Below are positions 3,237 through 6,472 of a stretch of 6,578 bases of DNA, in pieces. The DNA lies in contig MGQK01000081.1 of the NCBI GenBank assembly GCA_001797815.1, forward strand, positions 181,179-187,756. The letters are read 5' to 3'. The position numbers were made by a program, and so were the translations under genes. Source of the DNA: Deltaproteobacteria bacterium RBG_13_61_14. Its GTDB lineage: Bacteria > RBG-13-61-14. The notes under the pieces were generated by a model. It was not told the origin of the DNA and made no database searches. It saw only the letters and a program-made list of their open reading frames with translations. Each line of letters begins with the position of its first letter. Position 1 is the first letter of the stretch.

Positions 3237-3285
3237 AAAACAAAAAAGGCTTGACAAAATCTGAAAAATTAATATAATGAAGATT
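3237..3285 (+). promoter_or_regulatory. Sigma70-type promoter of the rpsL-rpsG-fusA-tuf genes
   Basis: The -35 hexamer TTGACA (3251-3256) and the -10 hexamer TATAAT (3273-3278) both match the sigma70 consensus exactly and are separated by 16 bases. A-tracts directly upstream (AAAA at 3237-3240, AAAAAA at 3242-3247) lie where a proximal UP element would sit. The predicted start of transcription is near 3283-3288, giving a leader of only about 20-25 bases before rpsL. The bases between the -10 and the start are A/T-rich, unlike the GC-rich discriminator of E. coli stringently controlled promoters. The region stands out as AT-rich between very GC-rich genes. Function is inferred from the sequence; the match itself is directly visible. 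Confidence 0.9.
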
Positions 3286-3296
3286 TCATTTTTCAG
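3261..3296. promoter_or_regulatory. Inverted repeats overlapping the str promoter (possible operator)
   Basis: Two overlapping symmetric elements cover the promoter. CTGAAAAAT (3261-3269) and ATTTTTCAG (3288-3296) form a perfect 9-bp inverted repeat centred on the end of the -10 box. AATGAA (3276-3281) and TTCATT (3285-3290) form a 6-bp palindrome around the expected transcription start. The position suits a dimeric repressor. Short AT-rich palindromes also arise by chance in such sequence, and no regulator is encoded in the window, so the operator role is only a possibility. In RNA read through from rpoC, the larger repeat would pair up to the first two bases of the rpsL ribosome binding site. 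Confidence 0.3.
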
Positions 3297-3307: not shown

Positions 3308-3679
3308 ATGCCCACGATTAATCAGCTTGTCCGCCACGGACGGGAAAAGGTCGCGCGCAAGACCAAGGCTCCGGCCCTGCAGAGCTGCCCGCAGAAGCGG
3401 GGCGTCTGCGTGCGGGTGACCACGTTTACGCCCAAGAAGCCGAACTCGGCCATGCGCAAGGTGGCCCGGGTGCGCCTGACCAACGGCATCGAAGTGACCA
3501 CCTACATCCCCGGGGTGGGGCACAACCTGCAGGAGCACTCGGTGGTGTTGATCCGGGGCGGCCGGGTCAAGGATTTGCCCGGGGTCCGCTACCACATTAT
3601 CCGGGGCACCCTGGATGCCATGGGAGTTCAGGATCGAAAGCAAGGACGATCCAAGTACGGGGCCAAGCGCCCCAAGTAG
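3308..3679 (+). CDS. rpsL: 30S ribosomal protein S12
   Basis: S12 sits at the decoding centre of the small ribosomal subunit, contacts the A-site helix of 16S rRNA and controls decoding accuracy; it is the classical target of streptomycin-resistance mutations. The 123-residue protein is full length (E. coli 124) and aligns over its whole length. The decoding loop [11 protein letters not shown] carries Lys43 and Lys44, and the second loop [13 protein letters not shown] carries Lys88, Asp89 and Pro91. In mature E. coli numbering these are Lys42, Lys43, Lys87, Asp88 and Pro90, so the usual resistance positions are all wild type and the Asp modified by RimO in E. coli is present. The C-terminus ends in the usual [10 protein letters not shown]. 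The gene is the first of the str group, 86 bases after rpoC and directly behind a consensus promoter. It is followed by an 85-base gap with a long inverted repeat. Confidence 0.99.
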
Positions 3680-3680
3680 C

Positions 3681-3740
3681 GAAAAAGGATTTGAGAGAGC
3701 CGGGGCCAAAGAAAAGACGGCGCGTTTCAAATCCTTTTTC
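3681..3740 (+). promoter_or_regulatory. Long hairpin in the rpsL-rpsG gap, possible S7 control site
   Basis: GAAAAAGGATTTGA (3681-3694) is perfectly complementary to TCAAATCCTTTTTC (3727-3740). The stem extends inwards by a G-U pair (3695/3726) and an A-T pair (3696/3725), giving 16 pairs closed by a 28-base GC-rich loop, within which GCCG (3699-3702) and CGGC (3718-3721) can pair again. The left arm begins two bases after the rpsL stop codon. In E. coli, S7 binds the rpsL-rpsG intercistronic mRNA and represses its own translation, so a structured RNA here fits that role, although I cannot show homology to the E. coli S7 site. The T-run lies inside the stem rather than after it, which argues against a standard intrinsic terminator, though an attenuator cannot be excluded. 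The pairing is certain; the function is inferred. Confidence 0.7.
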
Positions 3741-3754
3741 TAGTTCAGAATAAC

Positions 3755-3762
3755 AGGATTTG
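3755..3762 (+). promoter_or_regulatory. Ribosome binding site of rpsG, complementary to the hairpin's right arm
   Basis: AGGA (3755-3758) is 6 bases before the ATG at 3765. The eight bases AGGATTTG (3755-3762) repeat the core of the hairpin's left arm (3686-3693) and can therefore pair with CAAATCCT (3728-3735) in its right arm, which would hide the ribosome binding site. Confidence 0.75.
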
Positions 3763-3764
3763 CC

Positions 3765-4235
3765 ATGCCAAGAAGACGGGAAGTGCCGATCCGGCCCTTG
3801 TTGCCGGACCCGGTGTATCAGGATGCCCAGGTGACCCGGTTCATCAACAACCTCATGCGCCGGGGCAAGAAGAGTCCGGCCGAGCGGATTTTTTACCAGG
3901 CCATGGACCTGATCCAAAAGCAGGCGCAGGAAGAGCCGCTCAAGGTGTTCAAGAAGGCGGTCAAGAACGCGGAGCCGAGCCTGGAGGTGAAGTCGCGCCG
4001 GGTGGGCGGGGCCAACTACCAGGTGCCGATCGAAGTGCGGCCGCGGCGGCGGGAAGCCCTGGCCATCCGCTGGCTGATCAGCTTTGCGCGGGAACGGAGC
4101 GAGCATACCATGGAGGAAAAGCTGGCCGGGGAATTGATGGACGCGGCCAACAGCCGGGGAGCCACGGTCAAGAAGCGGGAAGACATCCACCGCATGGCCG
4201 AAGCCAACAAAGCCTTTGCGCATTACCGCTGGTAG
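3765..4235 (+). CDS. rpsG: 30S ribosomal protein S7
   Basis: S7 is a primary 16S rRNA-binding protein that nucleates folding of the 30S head and lines the E site; in E. coli it also represses translation of the str mRNA. The 156-residue product is full length. Diagnostic segments are the N-terminal [20 protein letters not shown], the beta-hairpin region [19 protein letters not shown] of the family (here [16 protein letters not shown], residues 73-88), [12 protein letters not shown], and the C-terminal [20 protein letters not shown] followed by Arg-Trp and the stop, as in the short E. coli form. The start is fixed by the conserved MPRRR and by an AGGA six bases upstream. It lies 85 bases after rpsL. 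A tandem repeat begins at the base directly after its stop codon, separating it from fusA by 114 bases. Confidence 0.99.
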
Positions 4236-4277
4236 GCGAAGAGGGGACAGCATTCAGCGAAGAGGGGACAGCATTCA
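4236..4277. repeat. Two perfect 21-bp tandem repeats directly after rpsG
   Basis: Bases 4236-4256 and 4257-4277 are identical 21-bp units. Each starts GCGAAGA, contains the core GGGGACAGCAT and ends TCA. The first unit starts at the base following the rpsG stop codon. The GGGGACAG core with an adjoining inverted copy resembles palindromic repeats of the REP type that are scattered through many bacterial genomes and linked to IS200-like (RAYT/TnpA-REP) transposases. That assignment is from memory of the pattern and is not proven, since no transposase and no second locus is visible in this window. Confidence 0.85.
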
Positions 4278-4289
4278 GATGCTGTCCCC
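4264..4289. repeat. 11-bp inverted repeat (REP-like hairpin) in the rpsG-fusA gap
   Basis: GGGGACAGCAT (4264-4274) and ATGCTGTCCCC (4279-4289) are perfect reverse complements separated by the four bases TCAG. The left arm belongs to the second tandem unit; the equivalent segment in the first unit (4243-4253) could compete for the same right arm. The stem is GC-rich and would be a stable hairpin in the operon mRNA, but the following bases (AGCGTTGGTTC) have no T-run, so it is unlikely to be a strong intrinsic terminator. Possible effects are mRNA stabilisation, partial attenuation, or none. Confidence 0.85.
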
Positions 4290-4337
4290 AGCGTTGGTTC
4301 TTTGACATTACCGAACACGGAGACGACCTGATTTTCT

Positions 4338-6457: not shown

Positions 6458-6464
6458 AAGGAGG
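6458..6464 (+). promoter_or_regulatory. Strong ribosome binding site of tuf
   Basis: AAGGAGG is a full match to the anti-SD and lies 8 bases before the ATG at 6473, the strongest ribosome binding site in the window, in keeping with the very high expression of EF-Tu. TCCT (6452-6455) upstream can pair with AGGA (6459-6462 region or 6462-6465) in a short, weak hairpin. Confidence 0.9.
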
Positions 6465-6472
6465 ATTTGACG

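Follow-up and report, generated by a model that had tools for sequence, protein, structure and literature searches.

One of the questions that the rpsL–rpsG gap of this genome raises is what a long hairpin is doing between the rpsL stop codon and the rpsG ribosome-binding site. The initial annotation proposed a possible two-state RNA switch, in which the left arm of the hairpin serves as an anti-sequestor: when this arm is covered, the right arm would be released and could close the ribosome-binding site of rpsG. In this paper we looked at the hairpin, at its alternative pairing and at the corresponding gaps of other genomes.

Setting of the gap

The stretch analyzed here (the window, 6,578 nt) lies on contig C81 of a 4.7 Mb genome assembled in 132 contigs, and carries the end of rpoC, then rpsL, rpsG and fusA, and the start of tuf. 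The rpsL–rpsG gap is 85 nt long (3680-3764), with AGGA as the rpsG Shine-Dalgarno (SD) sequence and the ATG at 3765, 6 nt downstream of it. The features are collected in Table 1. Background counts were taken from ~355 kb of the source genome, sampled in stretches; they are approximate, because genes were called by a simple ORF rule.

Table 1. Features of the window around the rpsL–rpsG gap (MFE, minimum free energy)
Feature	Position	Strand	Remarks
Sigma-70-type consensus promoter TTGACA-16-TATAAT, 5' of rpsL	3251..3278	+	12/12 matches; 0.4 promoter-like sites expected
rpsL (S12)	3308..3679	+	TAG stop at 3677-3679; S12 used to find relatives
Left arm of the long hairpin	3681..3696	+	At 3686-3693 it has the same AGGATTTG as the rpsG SD segment
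Inner 4-bp stem	3699..3721	+	3699-3702/3718-3721, in the 28-nt hairpin interior of the MFE fold
Alternative hairpin closing SD and AUG	3722..3768	+	Stems 3722-3725/3765-3768, 3728-3735/3755-3762 and 3738-3741/3747-3750
Right arm of the long hairpin	3725..3740	+	T-tract at its end; 3728-3735 complementary to 3686-3693 and to 3755-3762
rpsG SD segment AGGATTTG	3755..3762	+	Includes the SD AGGA (3755-3758)
rpsG (S7)	3765..4235	+	S7 matches in 92/98 genomes

The long hairpin

The arms of the hairpin, GAAAAAGGATTTGA (3681-3694) and TCAAATCCTTTTTC (3727-3740), are 14 nt long, 100% complementary and 32 nt apart. In the MFE fold an A-U and a G-U pair extend the 14 perfect base pairs to 16 (3681-3696/3725-3740), in agreement with the 14–16 bp given by the initial annotation. 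This fold has an MFE of -28.1 kcal/mol with a z of -2.37, a value that 1 of 200 shuffles equals, and for the gap alone, with its ribosome-binding end kept fixed, z is -3.8. Per nucleotide, the MFE of the gap does not stand out (rank 26, compared with 67 gaps). Perfect inverted repeats of at least 14 bp within 100 nt were found 5 times in the 355 kb, this one counted, and inverted repeats and palindromes are frequent in the gaps of the source genome.

In the free RNA the long hairpin dominates, with P 0.996 when 3640-3800 is folded and 0.999 for 3680-3775, and the alternative described below has P~0. The order of folding in silico points the same way, as the long hairpin reaches P 0.999 once position 3740 is transcribed, before 3755 exists. 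We suggest that the left and right arms would pair during transcription, ahead of the synthesis of the rpsG ribosome-binding site. The hairpin would fold away 60 of the 85 spacer nt and prevent its right arm, an antisense sequence to the rpsG site, from pairing there; rpsG would therefore be open by default. The explanation that we favor, and to which we give about even chances, is a single-copy, lineage-specific and essentially static hairpin that came from local duplication/inversion or from insertion and that occupies its own antisense arm.

The looping-out of the spacer was also considered as a way to coupled re-initiation. Translational coupling is nearly abolished by a gap of ~20 nt in tests with E. 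coli and Haloferax (PMC10666635). The effective gap here is ~25 nt, which is still above this ~20-nt limit, and for this reason coupled re-initiation by looping-out is not claimed.

The alternative pairing that would close the rpsG start

The right arm has a second partner. As proposed from the sequence, CAAATCCT (3728-3735) can pair without mismatch with its reverse complement, AGGATTTG at 3755-3762, and our folds confirm in silico that the two pairings are mutually exclusive. The alternative hairpin exceeds the 8 bp described before: it has 4 + 8 + 4 pairs, made of GCGU/AUGC, CAAAUCCU/AGGAUUUG and UUCU/AGAA (3722-3768, local MFE -13.9), and the AUG is paired too. As a start-region hairpin, its local stability is ordinary for the source genome (rank 100 of 275).

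When 3681-3694 is constrained to be unpaired, the structure moves to the SD-closing form with P~0.98. The alternative reaches P 0.98-0.99 with footprint-like blocks to 3689 or 3692 as well as with 3681-3694 blocked, and blocking the left arm closes the SD in all contexts tried and the AUG in most of them. A block that extends only to 3685 does not have this effect, as the shortened long hairpin still beats the alternative and the right arm stays with the left arm. The assumed footprint matters: in the predicted folds, a ribosome terminating at 3677-3679 would close the site with a footprint that reaches 3689, but not with one that ends at 3685.

One possible option is a true switch. Here the right arm would be free to close the SD and AUG of rpsG whenever the left arm is occupied, whether by an rpsL ribosome at termination, by S7 or some other protein, or by an RNA; at all other times the site would be open. 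We consider such a switch unlikely. The flip of the fold under blocks to 3689 or beyond speaks for this option, but the footprint has to extend past 3685, and the closed state keeps no memory. Relative to the MFE it is less stable by 7.8 kcal/mol in 3680-3775 and by 10.9 kcal/mol in 3640-3800, and the barrier on the direct path from the alternative to the long hairpin is ~8 kcal/mol. From this barrier and general rate constants, we estimate that the closed state would revert in well under a second; being less stable and behind a low barrier, the closed form would have to be maintained by a factor bound persistently to the left arm. Thus exclusive pairings with differing SD accessibility were found, in silico only, and a closed state that is long-lived without a bound ligand was not found (~8 kcal/mol less stable, with a barrier of ~8). 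It should be added that the 'open' SD is itself just 25-52% unpaired, varying with the stretch folded. The anti-sequestor role proposed for the left arm is thus partly supported by the fold in silico, which turns to the SD-closed form under blocking, but it is opposed by the lack of memory and of conservation (see below).

Is the 8-nt match more than chance?

An SD complement of at least 8 nt within 100 nt upstream was found in 3/276 sampled genes, the window's own gene included. With arms that were shuffled yet kept complementary, 0.05% of the constructs reach an 8-nt SD match, or 0.19% if AGGA is required. A chance match being so rare, the three-way identity between the left arm, the complement of the right arm and the SD segment needs a cause, and either selection for the alternative pairing or common origin by duplication fits it. 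The rarity thus speaks for a switch, and counts against the static reading in so far as selection for a switch accounts for the 8-bp SD complementarity equally well as duplication. The response of the fold is a different matter: by a similar criterion 14% of the shuffled-arm constructs are 'switch-like', so that this response alone is weak evidence for a switch.

The copies of AGGATTTG reported earlier at 889-896, 3570-3577 and 6462-6469 are correctly listed. In the window this 8-mer was found 6 times (+ strand 889, 3570, 3686, 3755 and 6462; - strand 3728) versus 0.16 expected, and in the 355 kb it is ~5x more common than equally composed words (28 vs 5.6, both strands). Its copies at 889 in rpoC and 3570 in rpsL are coding words with the Asp-Leu codons GAT-TTG, and the genomic copies lie mostly away from start codons.

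Comparison with other rpsL–rpsG gaps

Within the phylum, two other genomes were compared (G001 and G002), both from another family of the same order, and the long hairpin is absent from the rpsL–rpsG gaps of both. The initial annotation had named the lack of the hairpin in related genomes as grounds for rejecting the switch; such a lack was found here in part, though both genomes belong to another family, and it argues against the switch as far as these two genomes go. The G001 gap has only 13 nt, TAAAGGATGACGGATTATG. The G002 gap has 72 nt and contains an unrelated dispersed palindrome, GTCAGGCN5GCCTGAC, in two copies; this palindrome has 24 sites in G002, 1 in G001 and 0 in the source genome. 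The two copies form a tandem pair that occupies most of the gap (locus L119, C311:9535-9581). The window's hairpin sits in the corresponding gap, but is single-copy in its genome.

The other rpsL–rpsG loci that we compared come from distant relatives and their gaps are unrelated. Among 150 distinct gaps the median length is 19 nt (quartiles 12-67), and 51 gaps have at least 45 nt. Only two of these 51 have an SD complement at p <=0.05: in the window it is 8 nt long and unmatched by any shuffle, and in E. coli it is 7 nt long (p 0.04). Chance alone would give 2-3 among 51, and so the gaps show no general tendency to SD complements. Blocking the left arm of the window lowers the SD accessibility from 0.51 to 0.02, the largest drop among 50 rpsL–rpsG gaps of 45-240 nt, and this strong response is a further point on the side of the switch.

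One gap of a distant genome (L025, on contig C1 of G096) has a layout that resembles the window's, with a hairpin whose left arm is SD-like (GGAGGTGG) and whose right arm is anti-SD-like (CCACCTCC), 5' of the real SD. Its fold response is weak.

Comparison with the S7 operator of E. coli

The location of the hairpin is that of the S7 target in E. coli (PMC10931766), which lends some weight to the switch and also raises the possibility that the hairpin is a homologue of the autogenous S7 operator in the E. coli str mRNA. Such homology appears very improbable to us. Both elements occupy the rpsL–rpsG gap, at comparable length (85 vs 96 nt in E. coli), and E. coli has the only other notable SD complement among the 51 gaps, so that in both species an in-gap segment perfectly complements the rpsG SD, over 8 nt here and over 7 nt in E. 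coli. However, the architecture differs. In E. coli MG1655, CTCCGTT right after the rpsL stop pairs in the predicted fold with the SD segment AACGGAG, and part of the SD opens when the first 10 nt after the stop are blocked. The E. coli SD is thus closed by default and opened by blocking the arm, whereas in the window the stop codon is followed by an arm that repeats the SD segment and the default is open; in the ground state this arm pairs with 3725-3740 and the SD is partly open. No common sequence or structure was found between the two, and the window arrangement differs from the E. coli type and is not a member of it. The E. coli structure itself was reported as not obviously conserved (PMC10931766). 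An Rfam search of the window gave 0 matches above the gathering score, and so no known ribosomal leader. The similarity to the 16S S7 site is uninformative against shuffles, with p 0.95 in the window and, likewise without signal, p 0.90 in the E. coli control.

The comparison also affects the sign of any coupling. In E. coli, S7 represses rpsG only in coupled translation (PMC10931766). Because the segment after the rpsL stop copies the SD here, a ribosome at this place would close rpsG, and this coupling of opposite sign to E. coli is a point against the switch. A form of negative coupling can be drawn from it, in which S7 or the ribosome that finishes rpsL sits on the SD copy and leaves the antisense arm to mask the SD and start codon of rpsG, the inverse of E. 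coli; we hold this to be rather doubtful. According to a 2024 review, S7 regulation is unstudied in most phyla (PMC10931766). If the switch were true, it would be an independently evolved S7 control of inverse logic, in a phylum without studied S7 regulation.

A terminator or attenuator?

Another explanation is that the hairpin, with its A-tract and T-tract, is a weak intrinsic terminator or attenuator that ends part of the transcripts after rpsL; a ribosome stationed at the stop codon of rpsL would mask the left arm and so favor read-through into rpsG-fusA. A core hairpin of -18.2 kcal/mol followed by TTTTTCT fits this description, and the A-tract/T-tract arm form is found in only three hairpins of the 355 kb, of which the other two lie ~240 and 32 nt past gene ends. 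The d'Aubenton-Carafa-type terminator score, for which the usual threshold is 0, is only -4.0 for the window hairpin. The hairpin at C81:100216 is a clear terminator with a score of +46.7, far above that of the window, and the C106 hairpin of the same A-tract/T-tract form scores -32.6, lower than the window. Bidirectional intrinsic terminators of the C81:100216 type have the arm form AAAAAGG...CCTTTTT in common with the window hairpin, but the latter has long AT-rich arms, a loop of 28-32 nt, an intra-operon position and a low score, and the length of the loop speaks against termination. In addition, rpsG and fusA would be left untranscribed if termination were complete, with just 24 nt available for another promoter, and in the 355-kb sample terminator-like sites at gene ends are not above the reversed-sequence control.

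Varied terminator-like attenuators were reported in the str operon of other bacteria (PMC2965389). They share with the window a T-tract hairpin in the str operon that is multiform across lineages; however, they are located 5' of rpsL or in the rpsG–fusA gap, and a terminator together with an antiterminator is predicted for them, whereas the window hairpin occupies the rpsL–rpsG gap and is below the threshold. Since the arm form is shared with two other 3'-end hairpins and the scores are widely spread, we keep a weak terminator or attenuator as an option of low probability.

Origin of the hairpin

The static hairpin that we favor would have its origin in the gap itself. The 8-mer common to the left arm, the right arm and the SD is most probably the product of a local duplication/inversion, or of an insertion, at the rpsG ribosome-binding segment. 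Without 3694-3762 the spacer would be 16 nt long, with a single AGGATTTG and the SD at its normal distance, and such a precursor gap would be a usual one, judged by the median and quartiles of the 150 gaps. Against a duplication stands the short length of the direct duplication, which is exact over 8 nt and slightly longer by eye when one mismatch and an indel of 2 nt are tolerated. The hairpin is not a dispersed repeat. We considered and rejected a dispersed element (REP/MITE-like), as a search of the source genome with the gap gave only partial matches at chance level and no second copy; a pattern search for AGGATTTG...CAAATCCT found one other site, with an unrelated interior, and the other 14-15-nt matches to the arms (on C3 and C36) read as coding words. 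We infer that the hairpin arose by duplication/inversion or insertion and that it probably has no regulated second state in vivo. If this is correct, the locus carries a caution, because a ribosome-binding segment that is duplicated and inverted automatically yields a perfect-looking 'switch'.

Other repeats in the window

An imperfect inverted repeat, CTGAAAAATTAA/TTCATTTTTCAG (3261-3272 and 3285-3296), overlaps the rpsL promoter with its arms on either side of the -10 box and is possibly an operator. The copy of AGGATTTG at 6462-6469 is located within the tuf SD region, and the right arm upstream of rpsG therefore also complements the ribosome-binding segment of tuf. At 4236-4295, the rpsG–fusA gap starts with a 21-nt tandem duplication (GCGAAGAGGGGACAGCATTCA x2), and an inverted copy (GATGCTGTCCCC) comes next. 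In the source genome the 14-mer AGGGGACAGCATTC has 4 sites, 3 of them on the same contig.
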